A stretch of DNA of 64,000 nucleotides from Clostridia bacterium (lineage in GTDB: Bacteria > Bacillota > Clostridia > Christensenellales > Aristaeellaceae): assembly GCA_017484085.1 (NCBI GenBank), contig JAFUTW010000013.1, positions 95,572 to 159,571 on the forward strand, written 5' to 3'. The notes beneath the pieces were generated by a model that worked only from the letters and a program-made list of their open reading frames with translations, did no database searches and was not told the origin of the DNA. Positions 37,718 through 59,690 of the stretch are shown piece by piece (position 1 is the first letter of the stretch; the number at the start of each line of letters is the position of its first letter). The position numbers and the translations under genes were made by a program.

Positions 37718-39802
37718 ATGAAACGGATCATCAGTGTGTTTGCCCTCCTGCTCGCCCTGGCCTGCAGCGGCCTTGCCATAGCCGAAGAAGAATCCTACCG
37801 GACCGCAAAACAGGCCAACCTGCGCCGCAAGCCGGACAAGAGCGCCGTCGTCATCGACCGGCTGGATCCGCACACGCGCGTAGAGATCCTGGACAACCTG
37901 GAATCCGGCTGGGAGGAGTATACGCACGTGCGCATCCTGCGCAGCGGCAAGGAGGGCTACATTCTCTCCGATCTGCTGGAGCCCGTCCCCACGCCGACGC
38001 CGAGCCCGACCCCGACGCCCGTGCCGACGCCCAGCCCCACGCCGACCGCCACGCCCGTGCCGACACCGACGCCCACGCCGGAGCCCACGCCCGTGCCCTG
38101 GCCGGAGGGCGAGAAGAGCGATTACCGGACGACCAAGCAGGCCAACCTGCGCCGTAAGCCGGACAGAAACAGCGTCCTGCTGGAAGACATGGGCCGCGGC
38201 ACACCCGTCCGCATGCTCGGGACGATCGAAAGCGAAGGGCAGACCTGGGCCTTTGTGCGCACCCGCCGCTTCAACCGTGAAGGATATGTCCTGTTGGAGC
38301 TGCTGGAACCCGTTCCGGAGCGCATCGAGGAGACCGCAAAGCCGGCCGCCGAAGCAGCGCAGACACCCGGCGGCCCCGTAGCGGTGCCCACCCTGCCTCC
38401 GCGCGAGCTGCTCCCCGGCGAGACCGCGTATGAAGAAGAACATCTCTTCCGCGTCCTCATGCAGGTCAATATCAGGGAAAAGCCGGACGGCGCCCTGCTG
38501 GACCGCGTAGGCGCCGGGACACATCTGAAAGCGGATACCTATGTGGAAACGGAAACCGGAGGCCAGTGGGTCCACGTGCTCGCCGGCGACCACAACCTGA
38601 ACGGCTATGTTCAGTCCGACCTGCTCAAGCAGATCCGGCCCGTCGTTCCGGAAATCGTAGGCGAAGAAGCCGTACGCGAAAAATACCCCGTCATCTCCCT
38701 GGATCCCGTATCGGACATCAAGCGGGACATCCCCTTCACCTATACGGATGAGGAGCTTTCCCGGTATCACACCGTCAGCGTCAATGACCGCGCCGACATC
38801 GTGGAAGACATCCGCGAGCGCCTCTACGAGCTCGGTTATTTCCGCAAGCAGAACCCCGGGAAGGTTTATACCCAGTCCACCGCGGAGGTTATCAGCAACT
38901 TCCAGCGCGACTGCGGCCTTGATCCCACCGGCGAGGCGACGCCTTACACCCAGGCGCTGCTCTTCGACGAGCGCATGGCCGCCATCGCCAAGGAATTCGC
39001 GCCCATCCAGATGGACTACCTGAACAACCGCGAGCAGCCCATCTACATCCAGCGCTGCGAGGTCGGCTCCTGGGATTACTACGGCGCCATCCAGATCTGC
39101 GTAAAGAACCAGACCTCTTCCCGCCTCACCGCCTTCGGCCTCACCATCATTCCCTACCTGTCGGGCGGCAGCCTGGCCGATCCGGCCGAAACCTTTGCAG
39201 AGGAAGCGGTGAAGGACTACCACGTCCGCAACATCTCCGTCCCGGCCGGCTACGGCTACTCCGATTTTGAGATCGAAGAGAACGCCGACTGGGAATACAC
39301 CTACCCCCACTACTTCACCGTCAGCCGGAAGATCTACTTCTCCGGGGCGCAGGTCGCCGTGAAGTGGTACCGCGTCGGCGGCCGCACCACCTACGTGGAT
39401 GACGATCAGCTCGTCTACTTCCCGGCCGGCAAGCTTTCCACCTCCATGCTCATCCGCACGCTGCCCGTCAAGGTCACCATGGAGGAGCACCAGGAGGCGG
39501 CCAAGTGGGATCTCGGCATCGTCTCCCACTACATCAACCCGGTGTGGCAGGAGCACTACAACCTGCCGCAGGGCGCCTACATCGCGAGTGTAGAAGGCTC
39601 CTCTCCCGCGGCGGACGCCGGGCTCCGCGAGGGCGACGTCCTAGTGGGCATCGGCGAGCAGACGATCCTCGGCGCGGCGACACTGCGCAAAGCGCGCGGG
39701 CAGATCAAACCCGGGGACAGCGCCGTGTGCGTCTACTGGCGGGACGGCGAGTACTACACCACCGAGATCATCCGCCCGAAGAACAGCAGCGCGCTCAAAT
39801 AA
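37718..39802 (+). CDS. Exported SH3 x3 / peptidoglycan-binding / PDZ protein
   Basis: The 694-residue protein starts behind AAAGGA. After a signal peptide come an SH3 module (about 25-88), a Pro-Thr linker (89-128), a second SH3 (130-200), a third (245-305), a peptidoglycan-binding-like module (DIVEDIRERLYELGYF...NFQRDCGLDPTGEAT, about 362-412), a beta-rich region, and a C-terminal PDZ domain (YIASVEGSSPAADAGLREGDVLVGIG, about 625-690). No protease domain precedes the PDZ, which is unusual. It may be a wall-bound scaffold or protein-recruiting factor. Confidence 0.82.
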   Translation: MKRIISVFALLLALACSGLAIAEEESYRTAKQANLRRKPDKSAVVIDRLDPHTRVEILDNLESGWEEYTHVRILRSGKEGYILSDLLEPVPTPTPSPTPTPVPTPSPTPTATPVPTPTPTPEPTPVPWPEGEKSDYRTTKQANLRRKPDRNSVLLEDMGRGTPVRMLGTIESEGQTWAFVRTRRFNREGYVLLELLEPVPERIEETAKPAAEAAQTPGGPVAVPTLPPRELLPGETAYEEEHLFRVLMQVNIREKPDGALLDRVGAGTHLKADTYVETETGGQWVHVLAGDHNLNGYVQSDLLKQIRPVVPEIVGEEAVREKYPVISLDPVSDIKRDIPFTYTDEELSRYHTVSVNDRADIVEDIRERLYELGYFRKQNPGKVYTQSTAEVISNFQRDCGLDPTGEATPYTQALLFDERMAAIAKEFAPIQMDYLNNREQPIYIQRCEVGSWDYYGAIQICVKNQTSSRLTAFGLTIIPYLSGGSLADPAETFAEEAVKDYHVRNISVPAGYGYSDFEIEENADWEYTYPHYFTVSRKIYFSGAQVAVKWYRVGGRTTYVDDDQLVYFPAGKLSTSMLIRTLPVKVTMEEHQEAAKWDLGIVSHYINPVWQEHYNLPQGAYIASVEGSSPAADAGLREGDVLVGIGEQTILGAATLRKARGQIKPGDSAVCVYWRDGEYYTTEIIRPKNSSALK
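37982..38100 (+). repeat. Pro-Thr linker repeat
   Basis: A run of about 40 codons, mostly alternating Pro and Thr/Ser/Val, encoded by GC-rich CCGACGCC-type units. Such linkers hold exported domains apart, and the DNA repeat may vary in length between strains. Confidence 0.85.
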
Positions 39803-39822: not shown

Positions 39823-39855
39823 ATGAGACCCGCAGCCTTCAGCTGCGGGTCTCAT
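39823..39855. terminator. Bidirectional hairpin between converging genes
   Basis: Fourteen-base perfect arms 39823-39836 and 39842-39855 (ATGAGACCCGCAGC and complement). It ends the SH3/PDZ gene and the large minus-strand operon. T runs are short on both sides. Confidence 0.75.
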
Positions 39856-39870: not shown

Positions 39871-40560
39871 TTATCGGGTGAATCCCGGCAGGCCCTCGAT
39901 CGCGTAGGCGCGGATCGGGCAGGAGTCGAGCCCCATGATGGGCAGCGCGGAATAGGACATGAAGAAGGTGTCGCTCTCCAGGCATTCCAGGTTCTTCAGC
40001 ACCTCGAGGAAGGTGATGTCCACTTCCATGCACACGTCGTGGAAGGGCTTCACATCCTCATTGCTACTCTCGATGGAGACGCCGTCGCCGAAGCCGACGC
40101 ACTTGACGCCGTGGTTGCGCATCCACCAGGCGGTGTCGCCGTTCACCAGCAGGCGCTTGTCCTTCTCGGTGTTCGTGTCCGGCGTGAAGGGGGCGAGCTT
40201 GTAAGGGCTGTCCAGGATGACGATGTCTCCCGGCTTTACCCAGCCGCCGCACGCGCGCTCCAGCGCTTCCGGCGTGATGTAGCCGCGCTCCGGCAGGAAG
40301 TCGATCATGACGTAGATGCCGCGGCCCATGAATGCTGTCAGCGGCAGCTCGCCGACGGACTTTCCGTCGTCAAAGTGATGGTACGGGCACTCGCAGTGGG
40401 TACCCAGATGGCTCATCAGGTCCATCGCGGTGTGATAATCGGGGATCGGTCCGCCGGTGTTGTAGCGCAGCAGGTGGCAGCGCCTCGTCTCGGTCTTGGG
40501 ATCCAGCGGCTTGGTCAGATCGACCACGCGGTAACCGTTCAGCTCGTATACCGGATTCAT
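39871..40560 (-). CDS. Cyclase-family (kynurenine-formamidase-like) hydrolase
   Basis: The 229-residue protein belongs to PF04199: SHLGTHCECPYHHF near residue 50 is a form of the HxGTHxDxPxH metal motif, with Glu/Cys in place of the usual Asp. Family members hydrolyse amides, lactones or formamides (kynurenine formamidase, isatin hydrolase). It is last in the LacI-controlled operon, 49 bp after the ketopantoate-reductase-family gene. Here it may open a lactone or amide of the imported compound; the substrate is not known. Confidence 0.85.
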   Translation of the reverse strand: MNPVYELNGYRVVDLTKPLDPKTETRRCHLLRYNTGGPIPDYHTAMDLMSHLGTHCECPYHHFDDGKSVGELPLTAFMGRGIYVMIDFLPERGYITPEALERACGGWVKPGDIVILDSPYKLAPFTPDTNTEKDKRLLVNGDTAWWMRNHGVKCVGFGDGVSIESSNEDVKPFHDVCMEVDITFLEVLKNLECLESDTFFMSYSALPIMGLDSCPIRAYAIEGLPGFTR

Positions 40561-40609
40561 GATGATTCTCCTCCTCTACTGTTGTCGCTCAAGCCGTCCT
40601 GCGGCTTTA

Positions 40610-41524
40610 TCAGCTTTGTTTTCCTTCCATCGCGTGCACCAGCGCGACCATCGCCTCATGTGTCGGCGCGGGGACGCCGTTTCTCCGGCTGGCCGCGACG
40701 ACGCTGCCGCTGATGGTGTCCACCTCCGTCCTGCGCCCCTTGGCCAGATCGGCGCAGATGGAGGTGATCCCCTCCGGGCTCTTCTCGCACACCGCGCGGA
40801 CCTCAGCCAGCTTTTCTTCCACGTCGAAGTCCAGCCCTTCGCCTGCAGCCACCGCCACCGCCTCGCGTACGAGGCGCTCGCACAGCGCCCAGGCGTTCGC
40901 ATCCTTTGCGATGTAGCCCAGCGGCACCTGCAGCACGCCCGTCAGCACGCTTGCCGAGACGTTGGTGAACATCTTGTTCCAGATGAGCTTCATCACATTC
41001 TCGCTGCAGTCGGCCTCAAGGCCGGATTCCGTCAGAGCCTGTGCGATCGGGGCAAGGCGCTTCGCGTCTCCCTCGATGCAGCCCACATGCGTCATCCCGC
41101 TGCCGCCGTGACGGATCTCCCCCAGACCGGTGACCGCGCTGTTGTGCTGCGTCGTCCCGATGACGACGTGCGCCCTGTCGCAGAATTCCATAAGCGTCCG
41201 CTCGTGTCCGCTGCCGTTCTGCAGCGTCAGGATATAGGTATCCTTCCCGATCAGCGAACGGTTGGCTGAAAGCGCGCTGCGGCTGAACATCGCCTTCACA
41301 AACACGATGATAAGGTCCGCCGGCGCCATCCCTTCCGTGTTCACTGCCGCCTGCGGGTGATAGACGGCCTTTGAACCGTCCGGCTCGGCGATGACCAGGC
41401 CTTCGCTGTTGATCTTCTCCACCAGCGCCGCGTTGACGTCGACGATCACGACCTCATGCTTCCGGCTGAGGTACCCACCGTACAGCGCGCCCATCGCGCC
41501 GCCGCCCAATACCGCAATCCTCAT
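40610..41524 (-). CDS. Ketopantoate reductase family protein (ApbA/PanE), copy 2
   Basis: The 304-residue protein starts MRIAVLGGGAMGALYGGYLS, a typical NADP Rossmann motif, with FVKAMFSRSAL near 75 and the catalytic-lysine region KLIWNKMFTNVSASVLTGVL near 170-190. The ATG at 41524 has GGAGG 5 nt upstream, inside the alternative start at 41539 that overlaps the cupin stop. Within this operon it probably oxidises or reduces a 2-hydroxy/2-keto acid. True PanE for coenzyme A synthesis is possible but less likely given the catabolic context. Confidence 0.85.
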   Translation of the reverse strand: MRIAVLGGGAMGALYGGYLSRKHEVVIVDVNAALVEKINSEGLVIAEPDGSKAVYHPQAAVNTEGMAPADLIIVFVKAMFSRSALSANRSLIGKDTYILTLQNGSGHERTLMEFCDRAHVVIGTTQHNSAVTGLGEIRHGGSGMTHVGCIEGDAKRLAPIAQALTESGLEADCSENVMKLIWNKMFTNVSASVLTGVLQVPLGYIAKDANAWALCERLVREAVAVAAGEGLDFDVEEKLAEVRAVCEKSPEGITSICADLAKGRRTEVDTISGSVVAASRRNGVPAPTHEAMVALVHAMEGKQS

Positions 41525-41535
41525 GTTTTCCTCCG

Positions 41536-41886
41536 TCATTCGTACAGGATGAGCGCGATCATCTCCACCGGCTCCTCGCCAAGGCAGCGGATGCCGTGTC
41601 CCTGGCCCGGCGGGCAGATGGTCACGTCCCCGGGGCCGATCTCCGTGAGGTTCCCGTTGTCGTTGTAGAGCGCATGACCGCTCAGGATGTAGTAGGTTTC
41701 CCCGTCGCCGTTATGAATGTGGAAACCGATCTCGCTCCCCGGATATACCGTCGTATGGCCGAAGACACGGCCCTTGCCGCTCATCTCCTCTGGCCCGTTC
41801 AGCAGGTCGCGCACCGTGATCTCGCCGACGCCGTCAAACGGCGCGGGCTTGCGCACCACGTGCTTGTCGCCGCTTTTCCTGATCAT
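41536..41886 (-). CDS. Small cupin-domain protein
   Basis: The 116-residue single-cupin protein has metal-ligand residues in GSEIGFHIHNGDGETYYILSG (His55, His57, Glu62 region) and a second motif PPGQGHGIRC. It has an AAAAGGAG site before the ATG. Such small cupins act as isomerases, dioxygenases or sugar/acid-binding proteins; nothing in the sequence decides between them. It lies between the MATE and ketopantoate-reductase-family genes of the LacI-controlled operon. Confidence 0.85.
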   Translation of the reverse strand: MIRKSGDKHVVRKPAPFDGVGEITVRDLLNGPEEMSGKGRVFGHTTVYPGSEIGFHIHNGDGETYYILSGHALYNDNGNLTEIGPGDVTICPPGQGHGIRCLGEEPVEMIALILYE

Positions 41887-41925
41887 ATTCTACACTCCTT
41901 TTCCTTAAATAGCAACAATTCCATC

Positions 41926-43311
41926 CTACTCCCGGTTGATGTTCCGGATCCATTTCCCGCCCAGGAGCCGCCACAGGCAGAGGAACGTTTTAAAGATGAC
42001 ATCCAGTTTGAGGCACACGAACACCCAGAAGGGCGGCAGCCCCCAGACAAGGCCGGCCAGGTAGCCGAAGGGCACATCCAGCAGCCAGATGAAGATGAGG
42101 TCCGCAAACATCAGGAATGCCGTGTCGCCGCCGCCGCGCAGGATCCCCTTGCTCATCACGGACTGCGCCGCCTGGAAGACCATGAGAAGGCTCATGGCCA
42201 GCATCATTTGCATAGTGGCGTCCACCGCCTGCGGCGAAAGGTTATAACGCCCGACGATAAAGGGGCTGACTGCCCAGATGAGGACGCCGCCCAGCGCCCC
42301 GCCCGCAACGGACAGGAGAAAGAGCGTCTTGCCCTTGCGCTGCGCCGCCTCACGCTTACCGCGCCCGACCTCGTGTCCGATCAGCACGGAGGAAGCATTG
42401 TTGAGGCCCATGATAAACGCCGTGCAAAAGCGCATCGTGGCCAGTGTGATCGCCTGACCGGAGATGACCGCCGTGGACATGTGTCCCAGGATGACGGAGA
42501 GCGCGTTGTCGCCCAAGACCGTCAGGCTGTCGCTGACGATGGGCGCCAGGCCCGTTCGTCTGAACTGCCCCAGCAGCTCTTTTGACAGGCCGCCCGAAAG
42601 ATCCCTCAGGCAAAAGCCGATCCGCTTCCCCCGCCGTGCAAGATAGCCGAAAGTGATCACGAACTCAGCCACCCGGCTGATCAGCGTGCCCAGCGCCGCA
42701 CCTGCGATCTCCATGCGCGGAAAACCGAGCTTGCCGTAGATCAGCACGTAGTTGAAAAAGATGTTCAGCACAAAGGACACGCAGGAGACCGGCATCCCGA
42801 GGAAGTTGACCTCCGCCGTGCGCAGCAGGTTCACCATGATGAGGGAAGTGCCATGGAAGAAGAAGACCGCCGATGTGACGCGCAGGTACTTCGCCCCCTC
42901 CAGAATGATCCCCGGATCTGCCGTGTAAACCGACATGATTCTCTCCGGCAGGCAGAGGGTCGCCAGGGAAAAGAGGACCGCGCTTGCTGCCGAAAGCAGC
43001 ATGGCCAGGCGCCACACCTCGCGCATCATCCGCCGGTTGCCCGCCCCCCAGTACTGGGCGCTGAGCACGCAGGTCCCCCCGGAGATCCCCAGACAGAGGA
43101 TGTAGTAAAGGTTGTAATACTGGTTCGCCAGAGACGAAGCGGAGAGCACCGTCTCCCCGAGCGCGCCGACCATGACGGTGTCCATCAGGTTGACGCCGAT
43201 GTTGATCATCTGCTGAAACGCCACCGGCAGGGCGACAAAGAAGATTTCCCTGTAAAACGCCCTGTCCCGCTCGATCCAGCCGACGCGCCGGAGATCACCG
43301 TTACTCTCCAC
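41926..43311 (-). CDS. MATE-family transporter
   Basis: The 461-residue protein has twelve predicted helices in two halves, with MATE hallmarks FQQMINIGVNLMDTVMVG near residue 30 and NAASV-like NNASSVLIGHEVG near 285. MATE proteins export cations or drugs by proton or sodium antiport. The start is GTG at 43311 with AGGAG close upstream. Its place within a catabolic operon, 22 bp after livF, suggests it exports an intermediate or end product rather than a drug. Confidence 0.9.
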   Translation of the reverse strand: MESNGDLRRVGWIERDRAFYREIFFVALPVAFQQMINIGVNLMDTVMVGALGETVLSASSLANQYYNLYYILCLGISGGTCVLSAQYWGAGNRRMMREVWRLAMLLSAASAVLFSLATLCLPERIMSVYTADPGIILEGAKYLRVTSAVFFFHGTSLIMVNLLRTAEVNFLGMPVSCVSFVLNIFFNYVLIYGKLGFPRMEIAGAALGTLISRVAEFVITFGYLARRGKRIGFCLRDLSGGLSKELLGQFRRTGLAPIVSDSLTVLGDNALSVILGHMSTAVISGQAITLATMRFCTAFIMGLNNASSVLIGHEVGRGKREAAQRKGKTLFLLSVAGGALGGVLIWAVSPFIVGRYNLSPQAVDATMQMMLAMSLLMVFQAAQSVMSKGILRGGGDTAFLMFADLIFIWLLDVPFGYLAGLVWGLPPFWVFVCLKLDVIFKTFLCLWRLLGGKWIRNINRE

Positions 43312-43333
43312 TTGTCTCCTCTTTTTTCTGCCT

Positions 43334-44044
43334 TTACAGGCCGAGATACAGTTTTTTCGTTTCCGCGGAAAGGCTGCCCGTCGCTTCATGGTGAACGACG
43401 GCGCCGCGCTCCAGGATGTAGCAGTCGGAGCTGACACGGATGGCAAACTTGACGTTCTGCTCCGCGATCAGGATGGTCACGCCCTCCGCCAGCAGGTTCT
43501 GCACCATTTCCGCCAGCTGGTTCACGATGATCGGCGCCAGGCCTTCCGTGATCTCGTCCAGCAGCATCATCTTGGGATTCTGCATCAGGCCGCGCGCGAC
43601 GGCCAGCATCTGCTTCTCACCGCCGGAGAGCTTGTCTCCCTTGGAGGTCTTGCGCTCTTCCAGCCTCGGGAAGAATTTGTATACAGTCTCCAGATTCCAC
43701 TTGTCGCTGCCGTCCACGCCCTTGCGCGCCGCCACGCGGAGGTTCTCCTCTGTCGTCAGCGTCGGGAAGATGTGCCGGCCCTGCGGCACATAGGCGATGC
43801 CCAGCCTGGCGATGGCATGGCTCTGCATGCCGACCAGCTCTTTTCCGGCGAAGGTGATGCTTCCCTCCGTGCGGCAGTGCTCCTTGGGGTTCAGCATGCC
43901 CATGATGGTCTTCATGGTCGTCGACTTGCCGACGCCGTTGCGGCCCAGCAGGCAGACGGAAGTCCCTTCTTCCACATCCAGGGTGACCCCGTTCAGAATA
44001 TGGCTTTTGTCATAATAGGCCTGTACGTCCTTCAGCTGCAGCAT
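43334..44044 (-). CDS. livF: Branched-chain-amino-acid-type ABC transporter ATPase LivF
   Basis: The 236-residue ATPase has Walker A GRNGVGKST, signature LSGGEKQMLAVARGL and Walker B MMLLDEITEGLAP, the LivF-specific form. The ATG at 44044 overlaps the livG stop by one base (TGATG) and has GGAGGTGA upstream. It forms the ATPase heterodimer with LivG. The letters liv describe the transporter family; the substrate in this operon may not be an amino acid. Confidence 0.93.
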   Translation of the reverse strand: MLQLKDVQAYYDKSHILNGVTLDVEEGTSVCLLGRNGVGKSTTMKTIMGMLNPKEHCRTEGSITFAGKELVGMQSHAIARLGIAYVPQGRHIFPTLTTEENLRVAARKGVDGSDKWNLETVYKFFPRLEERKTSKGDKLSGGEKQMLAVARGLMQNPKMMLLDEITEGLAPIIVNQLAEMVQNLLAEGVTILIAEQNVKFAIRVSSDCYILERGAVVHHEATGSLSAETKKLYLGL

Positions 44045-44796
44045 CAATCGAGGTCACCTCCCAGATACGCCTCCTGAACATAGGCGTTTTCTTTGATCTC
44101 GTCCGGCGTTCCCGTGGCGATCAGCTCGCCGTCCCGCAGCACGGAGATCTCATCCGCGTAGTTGAAGACGATGTCCATGTCATGCTCGATAAAGATGATC
44201 GTCATGTTCTGGCGCTTGCCGAGGTCGCGGATGAGCTGCATCAGCTTGTAGGCCTCCTCTCGCGCTACGCCGGCGGCCGGCTCGTCCAGGATCAGCAGCT
44301 TGGGATCCATCGCCAGCGCGATGGCGATATCCAGGCGGCGCTGGTCGCCGTAGGACAGATACGCCGCCGTCTCGTTCAGCTTGTCCTCCAGGCCGACGAG
44401 CGAAAGGTAGCGGACGACCTCGTCCTTCAGGTAAGTGTCGCGGACGGGGAAGGGCCGGAAGGTCCGCCGGTTCATTTCGATGCGCGGGATCTGGACGTTC
44501 TCATAGACCGTCAGGTTGTTGAAGAGCTTGGAGATCTGGAAGCACTTCGTCATGCCCTTGTGGACGATCTTTTCCGGCGCAAGGCCGGTGATGTCCTCGC
44601 CGCGGAAGATGACCTTTCCGCTGGAAGGCGCCGTACGGTTGGTGATGAGGTCCATCAGCGTCGACTTGCCCGCGCCGTTGGGCCCGATGATCGCGCGCAC
44701 CTGTCCCTCGGGGACGGTGAAGGAGACGTCCTTCGTCGCGTGCAGGGCGCCGAAAAAGCGGTTCAGCTTTTCCACTTTCAGGATCGGTTCGCTCAC
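44044..44796 (-). CDS. livG: Branched-chain-amino-acid-type ABC transporter ATPase LivG
   Basis: The 250-residue ATPase has Walker A GPNGAGKST, the family's LSYGDQRRLDIAIAL signature and Walker B LLILDEPAAGV, followed by FIEHDMDIVF. It starts with GTG at 44796, overlapping the livM stop by 4 bp, with GGAGG 9 nt upstream. Length is normal for LivG. Confidence 0.93.
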   Translation of the reverse strand: MSEPILKVEKLNRFFGALHATKDVSFTVPEGQVRAIIGPNGAGKSTLMDLITNRTAPSSGKVIFRGEDITGLAPEKIVHKGMTKCFQISKLFNNLTVYENVQIPRIEMNRRTFRPFPVRDTYLKDEVVRYLSLVGLEDKLNETAAYLSYGDQRRLDIAIALAMDPKLLILDEPAAGVAREEAYKLMQLIRDLGKRQNMTIIFIEHDMDIVFNYADEISVLRDGELIATGTPDEIKENAYVQEAYLGGDLD

Positions 44797-45767
44797 TTTC
44801 CGTCACCTCCCCTTGCCTTCTTCGGGATCTCGCCGTAATCCTTGATGTTCTTGTCGCGCAGGATGCCGTTCTGCAGGAACAGCACGCACAGCACGATGAT
44901 CGCGCCCAGGATGAACTGATAATAGTTCGTCATGATGGATACCTGGGTCGAAATAAAGGTGACGATCGCGGCGCCGAGGATCGGGCCGTAGAAGCTGTAC
45001 ATGCCGCCGATGAGGCACATGATCAGACCCTCCGTCGAGGTGTTCGTGGAGAACATCACAGGGAAAGCGCCCATGTTGCGCATCGCGTACAGGATGCCGG
45101 CGATGGTGACGAAGAAGCTGGAGACCATGCAGGCATAGAGGCGCACGCGCGTCGTATTCATGCCCACGAAGGTGAGGCGCTCCAGGTTGTCGCGGCTGCC
45201 CTTCAGCACCGTCGCAAACGGGCTGCGGAAGAACAGGTAGATGAGCACGATGCAGATGAGGCACACGAAGAAGCTGAGATAGAAGTTCCCCTGCGGGCTG
45301 GAAGCGAAGTCCAGCCGCACGCTGCCCGTGATGCCTGTATCGCTGCCGACGTACTGGATCTTATAGACCATGGTGAACAGCAGCGTATTGATGCCCATGC
45401 TCATAAACGCGAAGCCCAGGTCGTCATTCGCCCTGAGGCACAGGATGTTGATGCCCAGCGAGATCAGCATGGACAGGGCCATTGCGCCCACGATGGCAGC
45501 CGGTTTGCCCCAGCCGGCACGGACGACCAGGATGACGTAGGCGTAGCTGCCCATGCCGAAGTACGTCGCCATACCGAGAGGCCGGAGGCCGCCGAAACCG
45601 AGGATGATGTTCAGCGCCGAGGCGAAGAGCATCATGATGACCATGCGGCTCATAAAGTCCAAAACGGGCGTCGAGGCGAAGAACGAGTAAATGAACAGCC
45701 CAAGCGCGATGACGGCGCCGATGGCCGCGTCCCGCTTCGTCTTGGACAGTGCCATGAATGCTTTCAT
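44793..45767 (-). CDS. livM: Branched-chain-amino-acid-type ABC transporter permease LivM
   Basis: The 324-residue permease has about nine helices and the LivM signature LNIILGFGGLRPLGMATYFGMGSYAY near residue 55, plus GGMYSFYGPILGAA near 255. The start at 45767 is just before the livH stop and has GGGAGG 9 nt upstream within the end of livH. Confidence 0.92.
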   Translation of the reverse strand: MKAFMALSKTKRDAAIGAVIALGLFIYSFFASTPVLDFMSRMVIMMLFASALNIILGFGGLRPLGMATYFGMGSYAYVILVVRAGWGKPAAIVGAMALSMLISLGINILCLRANDDLGFAFMSMGINTLLFTMVYKIQYVGSDTGITGSVRLDFASSPQGNFYLSFFVCLICIVLIYLFFRSPFATVLKGSRDNLERLTFVGMNTTRVRLYACMVSSFFVTIAGILYAMRNMGAFPVMFSTNTSTEGLIMCLIGGMYSFYGPILGAAIVTFISTQVSIMTNYYQFILGAIIVLCVLFLQNGILRDKNIKDYGEIPKKARGGDGK

Positions 45768-45768
45768 C

Positions 45769-46635
45769 TCACTTCGCCTCCCTCTTGGTAAAGAGTCCCT
45801 GCGGATTGATGGCCATCGCGATGACCATGAGGGCCGCGGGCAGCAGGTTGTAATACTGCGGCAGGTAGATCGCGCCGAAGGCGTTGACAAGGCCGACCAG
45901 CAGCGCGGCCGGCAGGCAGCCGTCCATGTTCCTGAGGCCGCCGATGACGAGGATCGGCATGACGTTGCCGAAGACGGAGAGGCCTTCCTTCGGCGAGAGG
46001 CCGGTGATGGGCGCGTTGAGCACGCCGCCCAGGCCCGCGATGCCGATGCCGATCATAAAGAGAACGGAGAACATGAAGTTGACATTGACGCCCAGGTTGG
46101 CGACCATGGGGCGGTCCGAGATGATCGCGCGCGTCAGCATGCCCAGCTTCGTCTTGTTGATCATGAACCAGAAAGCGAAGGCGATGAGCGCGGAGACGGC
46201 GATCTCAAACACGTAGTACTTGGGGAACATGATGCCGAAGACGCGGAACCCTCCGCGCAGGAACTGCGGCAGCGCCATGAGGCGGATGCTGTAGCCCCAG
46301 ATCATGACCATCATGTCGCAGATCATATAAGCCACGCCGTAGGTCAGCAGCATGATGTAGAGCATGTTCTTGCCGAAGAGCGGGCGTGTCGCCTTCTCGA
46401 TGAAATAGCCGATAAACCCGACGATGAGCGGCACGACGACAAGCGCCGGCACGAAGCCGACCTTCGCCGCGATCGTGTAGGTGAGATAGGTGCCGAGGAC
46501 GTAAAAGGCGCCCTGGCCGAAATTGATCATATTCATTCCGCTGATGATCAGGGAGATGCCTGCGACCATCAGGTAGGAAACCATTCCGTTGCTGATCCCC
46601 GTGATCAGCGTCTGGAAGAAGAAGGATACGGTCAT
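45769..46635 (-). CDS. livH: Branched-chain-amino-acid-type ABC transporter permease LivH
   Basis: The 288-residue permease has eight or nine helices and the LivH signature ISLIISGMNMINFGQGAFYVLG near residue 30 and GGLRNMDGCLPAALLVGL near 235. AGGAGG precedes the ATG. It forms the channel with LivM. A strong hairpin separates it from the binding-protein gene upstream. Confidence 0.92.
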   Translation of the reverse strand: MTVSFFFQTLITGISNGMVSYLMVAGISLIISGMNMINFGQGAFYVLGTYLTYTIAAKVGFVPALVVVPLIVGFIGYFIEKATRPLFGKNMLYIMLLTYGVAYMICDMMVMIWGYSIRLMALPQFLRGGFRVFGIMFPKYYVFEIAVSALIAFAFWFMINKTKLGMLTRAIISDRPMVANLGVNVNFMFSVLFMIGIGIAGLGGVLNAPITGLSPKEGLSVFGNVMPILVIGGLRNMDGCLPAALLVGLVNAFGAIYLPQYYNLLPAALMVIAMAINPQGLFTKREAK

Positions 46636-46661
46636 GACTTCACCTCAGCCTCCTTTAGGAT

Positions 46662-46694
46662 GGGAAAATGCGGCAGGCGCGCGCCTGCCGCATT
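46662..46694 (-). terminator. Intra-operon hairpin after the binding-protein gene
   Basis: A perfect 28-bp palindrome (arms 46667-46680 and 46681-46694, AATGCGGCAGGCGC) is followed on the minus strand by TTTTCCC. It would leave the binding protein in excess over the membrane subunits. Confidence 0.8.
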
Positions 46695-46707
46695 GGTATA
46701 AGACGGA

Positions 46708-47973
46708 TTACTCGGCGCTCAGGTCGCGGAATTCGTAGCCCATCTCCTGCGCATAGGCAATCATGTCTTCCTTGGTCGGGAGCATTTCGTCGCCGGAGTA
46801 GACGGCATACACGTCGCCGACCGGGATCTGCCACTTGCCGGTGGTGTCTTCCACGGCAGTGACGTAGTAGTAGGTGTGCGCGATGACGTGGTCGAAATCA
46901 CGGAAGTAGAGGTCGTCGCCGTACAGCGTCTTGAAGTGGACGTTCGCCAGCGCCTTGGTCATGGCTTCGGGGCTCAGGTCGTCAGGCGTGGTGCGGGCAG
47001 CCTCGGCGATCGCCTTGATGCCGACATACCAGGTGTAGCCCATCTCGGAGGGGTAGATCTCGGCGTTGTAGTACTTGGCGCCGATGTCGGAATAGGCCTG
47101 AACGAATTCCGCATTGCCCTCGATCTCGTCCATCCAGAACGGCCAGAGGCCGACGCCGTGCACCTTGCCGTACGGATACGCGCCCGCCTGGGCCAGGGAG
47201 GTGGTGTTCGTAGAGTCGCAGGTGTACCAGCCGAGGTAGTCGCACATATCCCACAGGCCGAACTGCTGGCCCTGGTTGATCAGGGAGACGAAGTTCGGGC
47301 CGGCGACCGCGCCGATGATGGTGTCAGGCGCCTTGCCGACGACGGAAGAGATGATGGTGGAGAACTCGGTAGCGTTGGAAGAAACCTGGTTGGAACCGAG
47401 GTTGGCGAAGTCGGGGCCGAGCTCACGGTAGAAGAAGTCGCGGCTGTCGCCGGAGGCGCCGCCGTCGTTGCCGATAAAGAAGGCGCTCTTGTAGCCCTGA
47501 TCGGCCGCGTACTTCGCGTTCATCTTGGCGATCGGCCAGGCCACGAAGCCGCAGGAGAACATGTACTTGGAGGCGTTTTCAATGGTCACGCGGGTATTCA
47601 TCGTGCAGGGCGTAACCATCGGGAACTTGTTTTCTTCCGCCCAGGTCGCGCCGGTCGGCGCTTCGCCGTCGCTCTTGGGGCCGAGGATGGCGATGCAGCC
47701 CTCGTTGACCAGCTCGGTCGCCTTCTGGGCCACGTTCGCGGAGTCGCTCGCGGTGTCGCGGTAAACGAGTTCGAATTCGACGCCGTTCAGGCCGCCCTCG
47801 GCGTTGACTTCTTCCAGCGCGAGGATGGCGCCGGCTTCGGCCCAGGTGACGGTCGCGGCCGCCGCGGAAGAGCGGTCGGTCAGCACGCCGATCTTTACCG
47901 TCTCGGCGGCGGCAAAGGCAGAGAGAGACAGCAGCAGGCAAAGTGCCAGCGCGAGGGACAGGATCTTCTTCAT
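46708..47973 (-). CDS. Liv-type ABC solute-binding protein
   Basis: The 421-residue exported protein has a signal peptide ending AFA/AAA without a lipobox and a type I periplasmic-binding fold (PF13458): IGVLTDRSSAAAA, AILALEEVNAEGGLNG, VAQKATELVNEGCIAILGPKSDGEA. Relatives bind branched amino acids, amides, urea or aromatic acids. AGGAGG precedes the ATG. It follows the two ICL/PEP-mutase-family genes, so the ligand is presumably related to their substrate. Confidence 0.9.
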   Translation of the reverse strand: MKKILSLALALCLLLSLSAFAAAETVKIGVLTDRSSAAAATVTWAEAGAILALEEVNAEGGLNGVEFELVYRDTASDSANVAQKATELVNEGCIAILGPKSDGEAPTGATWAEENKFPMVTPCTMNTRVTIENASKYMFSCGFVAWPIAKMNAKYAADQGYKSAFFIGNDGGASGDSRDFFYRELGPDFANLGSNQVSSNATEFSTIISSVVGKAPDTIIGAVAGPNFVSLINQGQQFGLWDMCDYLGWYTCDSTNTTSLAQAGAYPYGKVHGVGLWPFWMDEIEGNAEFVQAYSDIGAKYYNAEIYPSEMGYTWYVGIKAIAEAARTTPDDLSPEAMTKALANVHFKTLYGDDLYFRDFDHVIAHTYYYVTAVEDTTGKWQIPVGDVYAVYSGDEMLPTKEDMIAYAQEMGYEFRDLSAE

Positions 47974-48034
47974 GTCTTTTCCTCCTTAAGTCAGATGCTT
48001 TATTCTTGCGGTCTTACCGCATTGGAAACAGGAA

Positions 48035-49075
48035 TCACTGCGCGTCCGGGTCGTGGACGTCGTCCTTGCGGACAAAGTAATCCGCGTTGCGCTGGGCGAT
48101 GGAATCCTGCGGCTCCCGCACGTATGCGTTCTCCGCCTCCACCCAGCTGCCGTCCGTCAGGCCGAACATGCTCATGGTCGTAAAGGTCTTATAGCCCGTA
48201 TCGTCAAAATGATAGTCGACGTAGTCGTTGGTCTCTTCCCTGAGGACATGGCGGCCCACATCCAGCATGGCCAGCATGGCCGCGTGCGCCGAGAAGTGGA
48301 CGCCCGTCAGCTTGTAGCAGCGGGAATCCCGGAGGTCCTGCATGGAGATCTCCTCCGGATCATGCGCTTTGCCGCACAGATCGGGATACCACATCGGGAA
48401 ATCGGTGTACCGCTCGCCCAGCGCGTTCAGCGCGTCGCGCAGCTTCAGCATCATCTCCAGCTTCACCGCACGGCTCGGGATCTTGTGCATCCAGAGGATG
48501 CAAAGCATGTCCGCGCCCGCGTCGATGTACGCGCGGCAGCGTTCCACCGTCTCGTCAAACTCATGCACGAGGTCACTGTCGCACCTGGCGATGAGGAAGC
48601 CGTTCATCCCGTTCGCGTCCAGCCCTGCCCGGGCTGCCTTAAAGCGGAGACAGGCATCCGCAATGGAAAGCTGCCCTTTGCGCCCCAGCTCGGAGGTATC
48701 CGTCACCAGAACGCCGGCCGCGCCGGCCTGCATGATCCGCATGCAGCCGTACTGCGCGTTGAGTGCGCGGCCGAGGCCGAATCCGTCGTCCGCATCGATG
48801 ATGAGCGGCATCTGTGTCATCCGCGTGATCTGTTCCGTAACACGGACGAAGTCGTCGATGGACAGAAGCTGCAGGTCCGGGATGCCCGTCATGCCGCAGG
48901 CCAGGTCTCCGCTGGAGACCATGATCACCTCAAAGCCGTTCATCTCGGCCGCCTTCGCGGACAGACAGTCGTACAGCTCCGGAACGATGCGGACCTTGCC
49001 GTCCGCAAGCATCGCCCGCAGGCGGGCCGCTGCCGGCTCCTTTTTGTCCGGCGTCAGGACAAAGGGAATCGCCAT
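48035..49075 (-). CDS. ICL/PEP-mutase-family protein 1
   Basis: The 346-residue TIM-barrel protein has LYDCLSAKAAEMNGFEVIMVSSGDLACGMTG region, the magnesium motif IIDADDGFG (94-100) and IARCDSD in place of the usual ARTDA. The mobile-loop lyase motif K[KR]CGH is not present; GRKGQLS appears to take its place, so classical isocitrate or methylisocitrate lyase activity is unlikely. Candidate activities are hydrolase, decarboxylase or lyase action on 2-keto or 2-hydroxy acids. The ATG at 49075 is 9 nt from AAGGAG. It has a longer C-terminal part than copy 2 and shares only family-level similarity. Confidence 0.85.
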   Translation of the reverse strand: MAIPFVLTPDKKEPAAARLRAMLADGKVRIVPELYDCLSAKAAEMNGFEVIMVSSGDLACGMTGIPDLQLLSIDDFVRVTEQITRMTQMPLIIDADDGFGLGRALNAQYGCMRIMQAGAAGVLVTDTSELGRKGQLSIADACLRFKAARAGLDANGMNGFLIARCDSDLVHEFDETVERCRAYIDAGADMLCILWMHKIPSRAVKLEMMLKLRDALNALGERYTDFPMWYPDLCGKAHDPEEISMQDLRDSRCYKLTGVHFSAHAAMLAMLDVGRHVLREETNDYVDYHFDDTGYKTFTTMSMFGLTDGSWVEAENAYVREPQDSIAQRNADYFVRKDDVHDPDAQ

Positions 49076-49115
49076 TGGCGCCATCTCCTTTCGTTGTTAT
49101 CCGTTTTTCTTGCGC

Positions 49116-50099
49116 TTACAGTCGCTCGGTGATATCAAAGCGCTTGAACTTCTCGGGATAGTCTTCCACCTTGTGGCCTACGATCGTGTATTCCTTGTCG
49201 CCCTTGGTGAACTGATTCTCCAGCGCCAGATACGCCTGGGGGTCAAACAGGCCGGAAGCGGAGAAGCTCTCGATCCCGGAAGCCGGCGCCGTCTCAAAGG
49301 TGTAGGCGACGCTCTGGTCGCGGTAGTTGACCAGCCCGTGCTCCAACATGCCTTCCATGGCCGCCTTCATCGTGTAATGGCTGGAGCACATGACAAAGCC
49401 CAGGGGCGTCAGCTCCTCCATCGTGACTGACGGATGATAATGGCCGTCCGCGCCCTTCGCCGCGCGCACATCCGCAAAGATCTTGGGTCCGGTAACGATC
49501 TTCGCCATCTCTTCCGCCTGCTCCCGGCTGCCCACGAGGACCATCATGGCGATGACGGTCTGTCCCATGGAAGCGCCGATGTCGATCGCCTCCTGCAGGC
49601 GCTCGCAGCCTTCCTTCATCTGCTCCGGGTCATCCGGGTTCGCGTTGCTGCGGGCGATGAGCAGGCAGTCCGTTCCCTCCAGCGCTGTCAGCGCCGCGCG
49701 GACCTTTGCCATATACTTGTCCCTGGGCAGGATCGTCGTCGACTCTTCCATATCCGCGGAGTCTTCCAACTGGATCGCAGCCGCGCCGGCGGCGGACAGG
49801 CGCTTGGCCGCGCGGTATACGGCCAGCGGGCCGCCGAAGCCGTCCTCGATGTCCGCGATGAGCGGGATGGCGCTCGTCGTCGCGACGCGGCTGACCACAC
49901 CCTCCAGGTCCGTCAGGTTGGTAAAGCCGTAATCGATTACGCCGTTCAGTGAAATGGAGACCTCGCCGCCGGAGAGCAGGCTTACCGGAAAGCCGCACAT
50001 CTCAACAGCATGCTGTGAAGCGCAGTCATACACGCACGGGACCAGAAAGCACCCTTTCTGCTCCGCGAGGACCTGCTTCAGCGTCTTTTTGCTGGACAT
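49116..50099 (-). CDS. ICL/PEP-mutase-family protein 2
   Basis: The 327-residue TIM-barrel protein is first in the operon, behind AAGGAGG. It has VPCVYDCASQHAVEMCGF, IADIEDGFGG (81-90) as the metal site, QLEDS (110-114) and ARSNA (149-153) for ARTDA. The lyase cysteine loop KKCGH is replaced by a segment around TTILPRDKY. It differs from copy 1 in the metal motif (ADIEDGFG against DADDGFG), so the two may form a heteromer or act on different steps. Function is not assigned. Confidence 0.85.
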   Translation of the reverse strand: MSSKKTLKQVLAEQKGCFLVPCVYDCASQHAVEMCGFPVSLLSGGEVSISLNGVIDYGFTNLTDLEGVVSRVATTSAIPLIADIEDGFGGPLAVYRAAKRLSAAGAAAIQLEDSADMEESTTILPRDKYMAKVRAALTALEGTDCLLIARSNANPDDPEQMKEGCERLQEAIDIGASMGQTVIAMMVLVGSREQAEEMAKIVTGPKIFADVRAAKGADGHYHPSVTMEELTPLGFVMCSSHYTMKAAMEGMLEHGLVNYRDQSVAYTFETAPASGIESFSASGLFDPQAYLALENQFTKGDKEYTIVGHKVEDYPEKFKRFDITERL

Positions 50100-50195
50100 C
50101 GTAAACGCCTCCTTTTGTTCTTTTGTTTGCCGGTCACCGTTTTCGGGGGGTGCAGGTTCGCCGTCCTGCCGCTCTGGGCCGTCTTCGCAATCGTT

Positions 50196-50209
50196 TGCAA
50201 TCGATTGCA
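50196..50209. promoter_or_regulatory. LacI-type operator 1, TGCAATCGATTGCA
   Basis: A perfect 14-bp palindrome about 16 bp downstream of the -10 box. An overlapping imperfect copy (GCAATCGTTTGC, 50187-50198) lies next to it. It fits the adjacent LacI regulator. Confidence 0.75.
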
Positions 50210-50224
50210 TTTCTGATGTTTTGA

Positions 50225-50253
50225 ATCTTATCAAACAAACCAAAATACGTCAA
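50225..50253 (-). promoter_or_regulatory. Promoter of the ICL/PEP-mutase-ABC operon
   Basis: Minus strand TTGACG (50248-50253), 17 bp, TAAGAT (50225-50230), in an AT-rich 353-bp gap (50100-50452) that also holds both operators and the lacI terminator but no gene. Confidence 0.7.
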
Positions 50254-50340
50254 TATAGTTTCGGTCAATTTTTAAACTTCGTCAATCCTGCACAACATTT
50301 GGGTGAAATCTGTCCAGTGTATTTTGGTAATTATATATAT

Positions 50341-50354
50341 TACAATCGATTGCA
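50341..50354. promoter_or_regulatory. LacI-type operator 2, TACAATCGATTGCA
   Basis: It differs by one base from operator 1 and lies 145 bp upstream of it, about 90 bp upstream of the -35 box. The spacing would allow a DNA loop around the promoter. Confidence 0.7.
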
Positions 50355-50408
50355 TAATTTTGTCTTTCAAGAGGCTGATTGATAACGCATTGTTGCCTTA
50401 TCGATATA

Positions 50409-50434
50409 AAAGAAAAGGCTGCCGATGCAGCCCT
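50409..50434 (-). terminator. Terminator of the lacI-type gene
   Basis: GGCTGC (50417-50422) pairs with GCAGCC (50427-50432) around CGAT, followed on the minus strand by TTTTCTTTTA. It separates the regulator transcript from the operon. Confidence 0.7.
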
Positions 50435-50452
50435 TGCAATTCCTCAGTTTGT

Positions 50453-51442
50453 TCAGGTCGTTTCGCGCTCGCAGATCTCCATATTGAGGATCATCCTGTG
50501 CGCGACCGGCTTGCCTTCCAACGCATCCATGAGCGTCCTGGCCGAACTGATAGCGACCGCCGGTATGATCGTATCCAGCGAGGAGAGTCGCGGCCTGCAC
50601 GCCTCACACAGCCGGGAGTTGTCCTCTCCCATGACCGAAAGCCTTTCCGGCACGTCCAGCCCCATGTCCTGCGCCGCGTGGAGCACGCCGATCGCCAGCA
50701 TGTCCTGCGCGCACAGCACCGCGTCCGTCGCCGGCTCCTCCTCCATGATCCTCCGCAGGACAGCCTCTCCCTCCGGCCCGGTGGCCGGGATCCCTTCATA
50801 AACCCTGCCCTGCACGCCAAAGTCGCGGATGCCCGCTTCAAATCCGCTGCGGATGATCTTTGTGCTGATACGCCCGGCGTCGATCACCAGCGCCATCTGT
50901 TTCCTGCCGCGTTCCGAAAGCATCCTCACGCAGCGCCAGAAGGCGTCCTTCTCATCCACGCCGACGCAGTAGACGTTGCTCATCCCGAAGTCGGTCGCCT
51001 GGTTGACCATGACGACCGGGATATCCGGCAGGCAGCGTGAAATGGCCTGCGAGATCTCGTCACGGTTCATAAAGGTCACGCCGAGCAGCAGCGCGCCGAG
51101 CACGCGGCGGCTGGCGAGCTCCGTCAGGGCCTGCGCGACGGTATTGTCCTTCCCGGTGTACTGGATAAAGCAGGTATACCCGTTCTGCATCAGCTCGCGG
51201 ATGACGCTGTAGAGCACGTTCCCCAGCCGGTGCGTGACCAGGTCGTCCGTCACGATGCCGATCATGCGGGAATTCTGCATGACCAGGGCGCGCGCGTTGA
51301 GGTCCGGCGTATAGTGGTGCTCCTCCAGCAGTCGCTCGATCCTCTCCCTCGTGGACTGCTTTACGCCGGGTTTTTTATTGACGACGCGGGAGACCGTCCC
51401 GGGCGATACGCCGGCAATCTTTGCGATATCATAAATCGTCAT
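50453..51442 (-). CDS. LacI-family regulator of the ICL/PEP-mutase operon
   Basis: The 329-residue protein has an N-terminal helix-turn-helix (TIYDIAKIAGVSPGTVSRVV) with hinge and a binding-protein-like effector domain. AAGGAG precedes the ATG. It is encoded directly upstream of the operon in the same direction, and the intervening DNA carries two TGCAATCGATTGCA-type palindromes, a sequence class bound by LacI/GalR proteins. It should therefore control the transporter and enzymes in response to the imported compound. Confidence 0.9.
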   Translation of the reverse strand: MTIYDIAKIAGVSPGTVSRVVNKKPGVKQSTRERIERLLEEHHYTPDLNARALVMQNSRMIGIVTDDLVTHRLGNVLYSVIRELMQNGYTCFIQYTGKDNTVAQALTELASRRVLGALLLGVTFMNRDEISQAISRCLPDIPVVMVNQATDFGMSNVYCVGVDEKDAFWRCVRMLSERGRKQMALVIDAGRISTKIIRSGFEAGIRDFGVQGRVYEGIPATGPEGEAVLRRIMEEEPATDAVLCAQDMLAIGVLHAAQDMGLDVPERLSVMGEDNSRLCEACRPRLSSLDTIIPAVAISSARTLMDALEGKPVAHRMILNMEICERETT

Positions 51443-51512
51443 ATTCCGTTACGCTCCTTGCTCCTCGTCCGTTCCCCAAAGACCTCTGTCAGGTGATTTC
51501 CCGCATTGCCGT

Positions 51513-52538: not shown

Positions 52539-52610
52539 AGGTGTTCCTCCTCTTTGTTCAGCCTCATGATTTTTCATTGTAGCATACCCCGCCTCTCCCC
52601 GCAAGATTGC

Positions 52611-52640
52611 TTGACAGTCTCCCTCGGCGGCCTGTACAAT
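52611..52640 (+). promoter_or_regulatory. Promoter of the DUF6273-like gene
   Basis: TTGACA (52611-52616), 18 bp, TACAAT (52635-52640). Confidence 0.7.
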
Positions 52641-52670
52641 GGACGCGAACACACAGAAAGAAGGCGCGCT

Positions 52671-53519: not shown

Positions 53520-53544
53520 CAAAACCTCCCAAAAAATCAACTGA

Positions 53545-53591
53545 ACAGAACCCGTATTGTCAGTTTTTGCAAAGCGGGTTCTGTATTTTTT
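53545..53591 (+). terminator. Terminator of the DUF6273-like gene
   Basis: Arms 53545-53554 and 53575-53584 (ACAGAACCCG and complement) enclose a 20-nt loop and are followed by ATTTTTT. Confidence 0.75.
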
Positions 53592-53604
53592 AGTAGAGAT
53601 TCGG

Positions 53605-53655
53605 TTGACATCCTTATATAAACTATCTATACTTGATGCAGAGACATCGGATGTC
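53605..53655 (+). promoter_or_regulatory. Promoter and candidate GntR operator of the ABC/transketolase/TRAP operon
   Basis: TTGACA (53605-53610), 17 bp, TATACT (53628-53633), both near consensus. GACAT-CGG-ATGTC (53643-53655) is a palindrome just after the expected start, with a further half-site GATGTC at 53657-53662. This suits autorepression by the GntR gene that follows. Confidence 0.7.
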
Positions 53656-53698
53656 TGATGTCGTGACAGCAGCCGACAGCTGACGGAAGGGAGCCTTC

Positions 53699-55599: not shown

Positions 55600-55620
55600 T
55601 CGCTTAAATCAATCCATGGC

Positions 55621-55646
55621 GGTGCGGGAGGTTCGCCTCCCGCACC
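55621..55646 (+). terminator. Hairpin after the binding-protein gene
   Basis: Arms 55621-55631 and 55636-55646 (GGTGCGGGAGG and complement) with a 4-nt loop and no T run; probably an mRNA-stabilising element. Confidence 0.5.
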
Positions 55647-55677
55647 CCCTGTTCCGGTCGGGAAGGGAGGAGTTATT

Positions 55678-56568: not shown

Positions 56569-56571
56569 GTC

Positions 56572-57417: not shown

Positions 57418-57465
57418 CGCGCTTTTGAATACATCTTCACTTCATCTGAAAAGAGGAGACGCATT

Positions 57466-58269: not shown

Positions 58270-58271
58270 CC

Positions 58272-59210: not shown

Positions 59211-59225
59211 TCGAGGCGAATGAAA

Positions 59226-59627: not shown

Positions 59628-59629
59628 GA

Positions 59630-59690
59630 CCCTCTCAGTCACCTCCGGTGACAGCTCTCCCAAAGGCATCGCCCTGCCGGAGAGGGCCCC
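59630..59690. repeat. Dispersed intergenic palindromic repeat, copy 1
   Basis: CCCTCTCAGTCAC, a small hairpin, ACAGCTCTCCC and a closing GAGAGGG form a cruciform-like element resembling repeats scattered in gut Clostridia genomes. CTCAGTCAC is shared with the element at 62641-62760 on the other strand. Confidence 0.55.

Follow-up and report, generated by a model that had tools for sequence, protein, structure and literature searches.

Among described systems, the closest to the locus reported here are the Escherichia coli yiaKLMNO operon, the 2,3-diketo-L-gulonate system (YiaK model NF009750), and the hexuronate systems that combine TRAP transporters with UxaABC. At the level of single enzymes they are 2,3-dimethylmalate lyase, methylisocitrate lyase and oxaloacetate acetylhydrolase of the phosphoenolpyruvate (PEP)-mutase/isocitrate lyase (ICL) superfamily, and the kynurenine formamidases and isatin hydrolases of PF04199. 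The locus itself lies at 39871-51442 of a stretch of 64,000 nucleotides (hereafter the window) from the gut-type genome of a Clostridia bacterium (assembly GCA_017484085.1, contig JAFUTW010000013.1), and consists of a lacI gene and an eleven-gene set encoding two PEP-mutase/ICL-fold proteins (ICL1 and ICL2), a Liv-type importer, a MATE exporter, a small cupin, an ApbA/PanE-family 2-keto acid reductase (KPR) and a cyclase-family hydrolase (CYC). We propose that the set is a catabolic operon under LacI repression that breaks down an imported derivative of a sugar acid; the ICL pair would be a substrate-specific front end and KPR-CYC a shared finishing module. We give this reading a probability of about one half; the substrate and the order of the reactions are what we infer from the genes and their context.

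Some related loci combine KPR-CYC and the operator found in the window with homologues of YiaK, DUF386 (YhcH/YiaL) and TRAP proteins, but the window operon lacks all three (DUF386 has no match in the window) and has KPR, CYC, a Liv importer and the ICL pair. Likewise, genes of hexuronate TRAP and UxaABC systems are found in some of the loci or operons that carry KPR-CYC, whereas the operon of the window includes an ABC importer and contains no Uxa gene. ICL1 and ICL2 share with the lyases and the acetylhydrolase the PF13714 domain and the aspartate and arginine positions of the family, but neither has the KKCGH loop, ICL2 lacks the glutamate, and both score far below the cut-offs for these enzymes. 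CYC matches kynurenine formamidase and isatin hydrolase in fold but falls below the arylformamidase cut-off. Aspartate is the usual residue in the PF04199 metal motif, but CYC has glutamate in all 82 loci examined, a count biased towards glutamate by the patterns HCECPYH and IPD[YF]HT[AI]M used in the scan. These loci are the best 80 of 205 CYC relatives found in 84,980 species genomes, together with a stretch from another family (G214) and the window. An earlier note, made from the sequence of the window, knew of no described pathway with this gene set, and we too found no paper on the combination in the open-access literature, in which our coverage of hexuronate regulons and TRAP binding proteins was incomplete.

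The eleven-gene operon is real. All 12 genes lie on the minus strand, the eleven being co-directional behind lacI (Table 1), and open reading frames (ORFs), profile scans and, for LivG, homologues bear out the genes and families that had been listed from the sequence. From ICL1 to CYC, adjacent genes are 1 to 72 bp apart or share 4 bp. The earlier note had extended such spacing to the whole set, but this does not apply to lacI, which is 353 bp from ICL1 when ATG 50099 is taken as the ICL1 start, as here (orthologues begin MSSKKTL or close to it). The likelier start of the MATE gene is GTG 43311, which is preceded by AGGAG and leaves a gap of 22 bp to LivF. The gene order is more than chance, since the run from ICL1 and ICL2 through the substrate-binding protein to LivHMGF, together with the cupin, recurs in Hungatella hathewayi and in a Spirochaetales metagenome-assembled genome (MAG) at 59-77% protein identity.

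The operon is probably under the control of its own LacI. Its sequence suggests a local LacI-family repressor, as the protein has a helix-turn-helix and a ligand domain, and palindromic sites lie at the putative operon promoter. The palindrome, TTGCAATCGATTGCAA, was read from a list of the best palindromes in 21 regions that lie upstream of the corresponding genes in related loci. Three sites occur in the window, against 0.33 expected, and all are in the lacI-ICL1 gap; two of them overlap just downstream of a promoter-like site and the third lies about 130 bp upstream of these two. They are also the only sites with at most two mismatches in the source assembly, which is incomplete (2.43 Mb in 49 contigs, 80.75% complete); at up to three mismatches it has 10. 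The earlier claim of one LacI-controlled catabolic operon is supported, and the operon is conserved in some other gut bacteria. Promoter-like sites (2 against 3.1 expected) and terminator-like hairpins (9 against 7.7 expected) are at chance in their totals, so that their position, not their existence, carries the argument.

Across the 82 loci there are 42 operator sites with at most two mismatches, against none in five Markov simulations, and 40 of them stand at the starts of CYC, KPR, DUF386, LacI, cupin, ICL, YiaK-like or DppA genes, with two elsewhere. The operator was counted in the same loci that served to derive the palindrome; exact matches in L034, L067, L070, L076, L078 and L084 lie outside the 21 source regions. 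The same operator is found at the related module in both Clostridia and Spirochaetes, in 31 of the 82 loci overall (16 of 44 groups when CYC is clustered at 90% identity). LacI genes of the same cluster are present in 33 loci, 25 of which are among the 31 with the operator; the other eight lack a site. The repressor seems to serve the eleven-gene operon alone, because the assembly has no other site at two mismatches or fewer and because 22 UxaA/B/C genes in related loci have no operator within 350 bp, even at three mismatches. We thus found no sign that this LacI regulates hexuronate (Uxa) genes.

Our proposal would work as follows. In the absence of inducer, LacI would occupy the operators immediately downstream of the promoter-like site; repression would be lifted by the imported acid or by a product of it. 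An organic acid would be taken up by the Liv importer and, as an early step, cleaved or rearranged by ICL1 and ICL2 at a bond beside a carboxylate or keto group. KPR would convert a 2-keto acid to a 2-hydroxy acid, CYC would hydrolyse a lactone or similar ring, and the product would enter hexuronate or keto-hexonate catabolism. The MATE protein would be a lineage-specific extra that may export a by-product.

Table 1. The operon and its putative signals in the window, listed from the lacI end.
Feature	Position	Strand	Basis
LacI-family repressor	50453..51442	-	PF00356 and PF13377 above cut-off
Terminator-like hairpin 3' of lacI	50414..50435	-	consensus match only
Operator site, 2 mismatches to TTGCAATCGATTGCAA	50340..50355	.	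palindrome search
Promoter-like site TTGACG-17-TAAGAT, TG ahead of second hexamer	50225..50253	-	consensus match only
Operator site, 1 mismatch to TTGCAATCGATTGCAA	50195..50210	.	palindrome search
Operator site, 2 mismatches to TTGCAATCGATTGCAA, overlaps site 50195..50210	50185..50200	.	palindrome search
ICL1, PEP-mutase/ICL fold, without KKCGH cysteine loop	49116..50099	-	PF13714, 84.6 bits; orthologues 58-80%
ICL2, second distinct PEP-mutase/ICL-fold protein, without cysteine loop	48035..49084	-	PF13714, 112.8 bits
Liv-type (HAAT) substrate-binding protein	46708..47973	-	PF13458, 172.8 bits; orthologues 67-75%
LivH permease	45769..46635	-	PF02653; orthologues 75%
LivM permease	44793..45767	-	PF02653; orthologues 60%
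LivG ATPase	44044..44796	-	ORF; named from 72-77% homologues in orthologous operons
LivF ATPase	43334..44047	-	top NCBIfam models UrtE and LivF, below cut-offs; orthologues 65-69%
MATE exporter (GTG 43311 start)	41926..43311	-	PF01554
Small cupin	41536..41886	-	PF07883; orthologues 59-63%
KPR, ApbA/PanE-family 2-keto acid reductase	40610..41539	-	TIGR00745, 243 bits, cut-off 141
CYC, cyclase-family metal-dependent hydrolase	39871..40560	-	PF04199
Terminator-like hairpin, 15 pairs, operon end	39823..39855	-	consensus match only

Counts over the 82 loci suggest KPR-CYC as the core, to which the ICL proteins add an optional front end. Of these loci 75 have KPR, 62 of them within 100 bp of CYC. 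ICL-family genes are present in 12 (10 of 44 groups) and absent from 70 fetched stretches, 64 of which have KPR. The fetched stretches stop at 10 kb or at contig ends, so that absence from them is weak: at least two of the 70 (L054 and L086) have an ICL pair just upstream, with two stop codons inside one of the two copies at the place of L054. Among 12 CYC genomes without ICL in the stretch, chosen by us, five have the family outside it at 280 bits or more, on the same contig just upstream in the L086 and L054 genomes and on other contigs in three. Genes were called by a longest/most-conserved ORF script; some unlabelled genes are antisense artefacts and the counts may miss members. By these counts DUF386 is present in 39 loci, a TRAP membrane subunit in 20, a YiaK-like LDH2 protein in eight and UxaC in eight (5 of 44 groups). 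The cupin is present in 12, seven of which have ICL genes; of the other five, all but L058 (L054, L059, L071 and L086) carry ICL-family genes at another place in their genomes. No CYC relative was found on plasmids at 1e-30, and the stretch around CYC in G035 had no informative neighbour. In four loci (L032, L033, L041 and L099) KPR-CYC lies near a recurring cluster of hydantoinase/oxoprolinase-like (family checked in L032 only) and permease-like genes, and three of the four have a YiaK-like gene.

CYC belongs to the PF04199 cyclase family by both profile and fold, the closest folds being those of formamidases, isatin hydrolases and their kin; it may plausibly open an amide or a lactone, and it falls well short of the arylformamidase model TIGR03035 (48.1 bits against a cut-off of 223.05). 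KPR is above the ApbA/PanE subfamily cut-off (TIGR00745, 243.1 against 141.35 bits). This last score agrees with the suggestion in the earlier note that the operon may run a pantoate-like pathway in reverse, but all ketopantoate reductase equivalog models are below cut-off for KPR. In addition, the PanB family is absent among the profile matches of ICL1 and ICL2 up to E 0.001, PEP_mutase being matched instead, and KPR-CYC stands without ICL proteins in the stretch of a sister species (L021) and in the 64 stretches mentioned above, partly in a hexuronate/keto-sugar-acid setting. A reversed pantoate route is therefore very improbable.

The company of KPR-CYC (YiaK, glucuronate-type TRAP, Uxa) points to sugar acids. 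In L026, L028 and L034, YiaK-like genes stand with DUF386 and TRAP genes behind the operator, and the LDH2 gene behind the perfect operator of L034 encodes a YiaK equivalog (464 bits, cut-off 316) that scores 332 bits against the YiaK structure. For the TRAP binding protein of L037, encoded in a CYC-KPR-DUF386-TRAP operon, the nearest match is 4N91 (207 bits), and for that of L034 4MHF is the joint top match (131 bits); PMC7660916 gives the former as a D-glucuronate binder and the latter as a binder of glucuronate and galacturonate. CYC, KPR, DUF386, UxaB, UxaA and UxaC form one co-directional run in L045, L048 and L051. Of 19 CYC genomes chosen by us 18 have UxaC, against 122 of the 248 in the order, which is a weak test, as lineages are mixed and part of the difference may come from common descent or from life in the gut. 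In the window's genome, UxaC, UxaA and Eda homologues are on contig 20, separate from the operon. In the spirochaete loci L075, L080, L083, L088, L089 and L097, KPR-CYC follows a conserved set of KdgK-like, Eda-type aldolase and SGNH-like esterase (by eye) genes, which suggests a pectin setting. KPR-CYC was found in Lachnospira, Treponema and Hungatella records; the CYC relatives include records of Treponema parvum and Lachnospira, which need uronic acids or pectin. A stand-in role of CYC-KPR for unsaturated-uronate enzymes, replacing KduI, found no support, as 17 of the 19 chosen CYC genomes have a member of the KduI/IolB family.

For ICL1 itself, a 56-58% homologue on a plasmid of Sphingopyxis sp. 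FD7 (L181, 5971-17571) lies in a TonB-receptor locus beside SDRs, a 2-hydroxyacid dehydrogenase, L-idonate 5-dehydrogenase, LacI and gluconokinase, a neighbourhood that favours a keto-hexonate-type acid. In one rival reading the operon would degrade products of vitamin C breakdown: CYC would open a dehydroascorbate-type lactone and the ICL pair would hydrolyse 2,3-diketo-L-gulonate into oxalate and L-threonate, in the manner of oxaloacetate acetylhydrolase, with YiaK or KPR as a reductive branch in other loci. The L-idonate-type genes of Sphingopyxis and the YiaK-like, DUF386 and TRAP genes behind the operator, including the YiaK equivalog, would suit this. Oxaloacetate acetylhydrolase, which is of the same superfamily as the ICL proteins and makes oxalate, is among the ICL1 matches, and the best solved-structure match of the cupin (tried as KdgF) is named a putative oxalate decarboxylase. 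However, none of the 12 loci with ICL genes has a YiaK-like gene, matches to 3-keto-gulonate-phosphate decarboxylase in L065 are far below every cut-off, and the known acetylhydrolase works through a cysteine loop that ICL1 and ICL2 do not have. We regard this pathway as distinctly unlikely.

Both ICL1 and ICL2 are members of the PEP-mutase/ICL superfamily (84.6 and 112.8 bits to PF13714, cut-off 31.5). Neither is an ordinary methylisocitrate lyase (PrpB), an outcome that the earlier note had named as one that would refute it: ICL1 scores 82.1 and ICL2 99.9 bits against the TIGR02317 equivalog cut-off of 354.4. The motif K[KR]CGH, the catalytic loop of cysteine-type ICL, PrpB and dimethylmalate lyases, is present in none of the 23 CYC-linked ICL-family proteins and in seven of eight comparison proteins of our choosing, and orthologues of ICL1 and ICL2 hold other residues in its place. 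ICL1 orthologues carry the signatures DIED, QLED, ADMEEST or close to it, and IAR[ST]N, and ICL2 orthologues carry DAD[DE], VTD or ITD, and IARCD or LARCD; the glutamate position is kept in ICL1. In a tree, the eight comparison proteins form one side of a branch, with the protein of L055 adjoining them on a long branch. The CYC-linked ICL family is separate from the ordinary members. Of 398 genomes of the phylum searched with a family profile, 69 match at 1e-20, with scores above 300 bits only in the window's genome and in G779, a genome that had not contributed to the profile and that has a KPR-CYC-ICL-Dpp-MFS arrangement (MFS recognised by eye). The next tier scores at most 206 bits, and five of its six genomes viewed have LeuC/LeuD-like neighbours (by eye).

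Homologues of the pair also occur on Agrobacterium vitis plasmids (L182, L183 and L184), as ICL2-like proteins of 41-43% identity and, on one plasmid, an ICL-like protein of 33%, each with a five-gene ABC importer that is Dpp-like by its order. An ICL gene with an adjoining ABC importer recurs elsewhere as well; no such importer was seen in the stretches read of Sphingopyxis, G1188 and L055. We speculate, tentatively, that ICL1 and ICL2 may be two new cysteine-less catalytic families that act as a matched pair in splitting an imported, possibly conjugated, sugar acid. Under this scenario, which we hold to be less likely than not, the pair and its ABC importer would have moved as a cassette between gut Clostridia and Spirochaetes, would have relatives in Alphaproteobacteria, and would be plugged into the common KPR-CYC finishing module. 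In L053, four consecutive related genes (14467-17404), the first SnoaL-like by profile, lie inside the ICL-Dpp operon.

The operon is conserved in part of its range, and its distribution is patchy. The co-occurrence for which the earlier note proposed to search was found for the ICL pair, the Liv importer and the cupin, which stand in the same order in H. hathewayi and the Spirochaetales MAG with ICL1 and ICL2 71-75% identical; it failed for the MATE gene, which is missing from both orthologous operons and is outside the conserved core. In the human gut isolate H. hathewayi WAL-18680 (L173) the identities are 73% for ICL1, 72-73% for ICL2, 75% for the binding protein, 75% for LivH, 60% for LivM, 77% for LivG, 69% for LivF and 63% for the cupin, with DUF386 in addition; a divergent GntR gene takes the place of lacI, and KPR-CYC is on a different contig (L095) from the ICL1-Liv genes. 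In the Spirochaetales MAG (L172), ICL1 (72%), ICL2 (71-72%), the binding protein (67%), LivHMGF (60-75%), KPR (47%), DUF386 and the cupin (59%) are consecutive, with an operator of two to three mismatches directly before ICL1 and with LacI and CYC about 4 kb further on. ICL2 has orthologues of 72-74% in two genomes and of 43-49% in two further genomes. At 1e-60, two of the 378 genomes in the Hungatella family have an ICL1 orthologue, Hungatella itself and G1188; that of G1188 (80%) lies near a D-2-hydroxyacid dehydrogenase, and no ICL2 or CYC is present in the 20 kb read there.

Both ICL1 and CYC are rare in the order: each has a match (at 1e-10 and 1e-40, respectively) in three of its 248 genomes, the window's own included. 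One stretch of G214 has LacI (34%), cupin (58%), KPR (56%) and CYC (64%) with a Dpp-type importer, two ICL pairs, MFS (by eye), MATE and DUF386. The sister species L021 (RUG12645) is collinear with the window at 80-90% DNA identity: window 51535-60295 corresponds to L021 8981-1 in three pieces, and window 39875-41541 to L021 10686-9025. An Lgt-family gene (PF01790) is about 10 kb from KPR in the window and about 43 bases from it in L021, so that lacI, the ICL pair, the Liv importer, the MATE gene and the cupin are absent as one block (L021 8981-9025, window 41542-51534). L021 retains KPR (89%) and CYC (97%) directly behind the Lgt-family gene, and no other operon protein was found in its stretch; downstream of CYC the two also diverge. 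When the 9.9-kb block was compared as DNA with 12 genomes, most matches were short and fell in the LivG/LivF stretch; the genome of L025 had one match to the cupin (287 bases at 76%), and the search was otherwise uninformative.

A binding protein, two permeases and two ATPases in order make a Liv/HAAT ABC importer in the window, and an ABC importer part is present in 11 of the 12 loci with ICL genes; among these, Liv genes occur in the window and in L061, and a binding protein of the Liv type in L064. DppA is found in eight of these 12 loci against two of the 70 others, and both of these two (L054 and L071) have the ICL family in their genomes; TRAP genes show the reverse, with one of 12 against 19 of 70. 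Such a split would be explained if Liv and Dpp importers brought in a conjugate of a plant compound and a sugar acid, which the ICL pair would split, MATE or MFS pumps exporting the aglycone and KPR-CYC using the sugar acid. Pumps of these kinds are present in several loci, and single loci have extra genes: an old-yellow-enzyme in L054, a SnoaL-like protein in L053, a Dabb protein in L071 and an amidohydrolase in L061. Against this, MATE and MFS are missing from both of the closest orthologous operons, the extra enzymes differ between loci, and no glycosidase was recognised in these operons, though no search was aimed at glycosidases. We consider import of a conjugate unlikely.

Several observations weigh against a sugar-acid derivative as the substrate, the reading that we prefer. 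The enzymes and transporters of the operon have putative substrates, assigned from sequence and context. The operator is absent from the 22 Uxa genes, and there is none near ICL1 of H. hathewayi (20 kb examined). The loci with ICL genes differ from the others in their transporter and in YiaK-like genes (0 of 12 against 8 of 70), and the ICL branch may use another substrate. Amino acids or amides are the usual cargo of Liv importers, and the neighbours of the A. vitis ICL-like genes are of an amide/aromatic type (aminotransferase, UbiD/UbiX, amidohydrolase, Zn-hydrolase and histidine ammonia-lyase genes), not sugar-acid genes. The importer family, these Agrobacterium neighbours and the formamidase-like fold of CYC would all agree with an amino acid or amide as substrate, taken up by the Liv proteins and opened by CYC in the manner of kynurenine formamidase, with KPR and the ICL proteins processing the resulting 2-keto acid. 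But KPR-CYC occurs repeatedly with glucuronate-type TRAP, YiaK-like, DUF386 or Uxa genes, none of the eleven genes is ammonia-handling, and the arylformamidase score of CYC is far below its cut-off; we judge an amino-acid or amide substrate, too, to be improbable.

If a sugar-acid derivative is indeed the substrate, the operon would point to a sugar-acid pathway, so far undescribed, of Clostridia and Spirochaetes in the gut and rumen, with two uncharacterised lyase-like families of testable chemistry and a regulator with a defined operator, and the function of the two-gene KPR-CYC module would follow from it. H. hathewayi WAL-18680 is a cultured host in which tests are possible.

Beside the terminator-like hairpin at the operon end, a convergent gene (37718-39802) also ends; it encodes a 694-aa protein with SH3, peptidoglycan-binding and PDZ domains.

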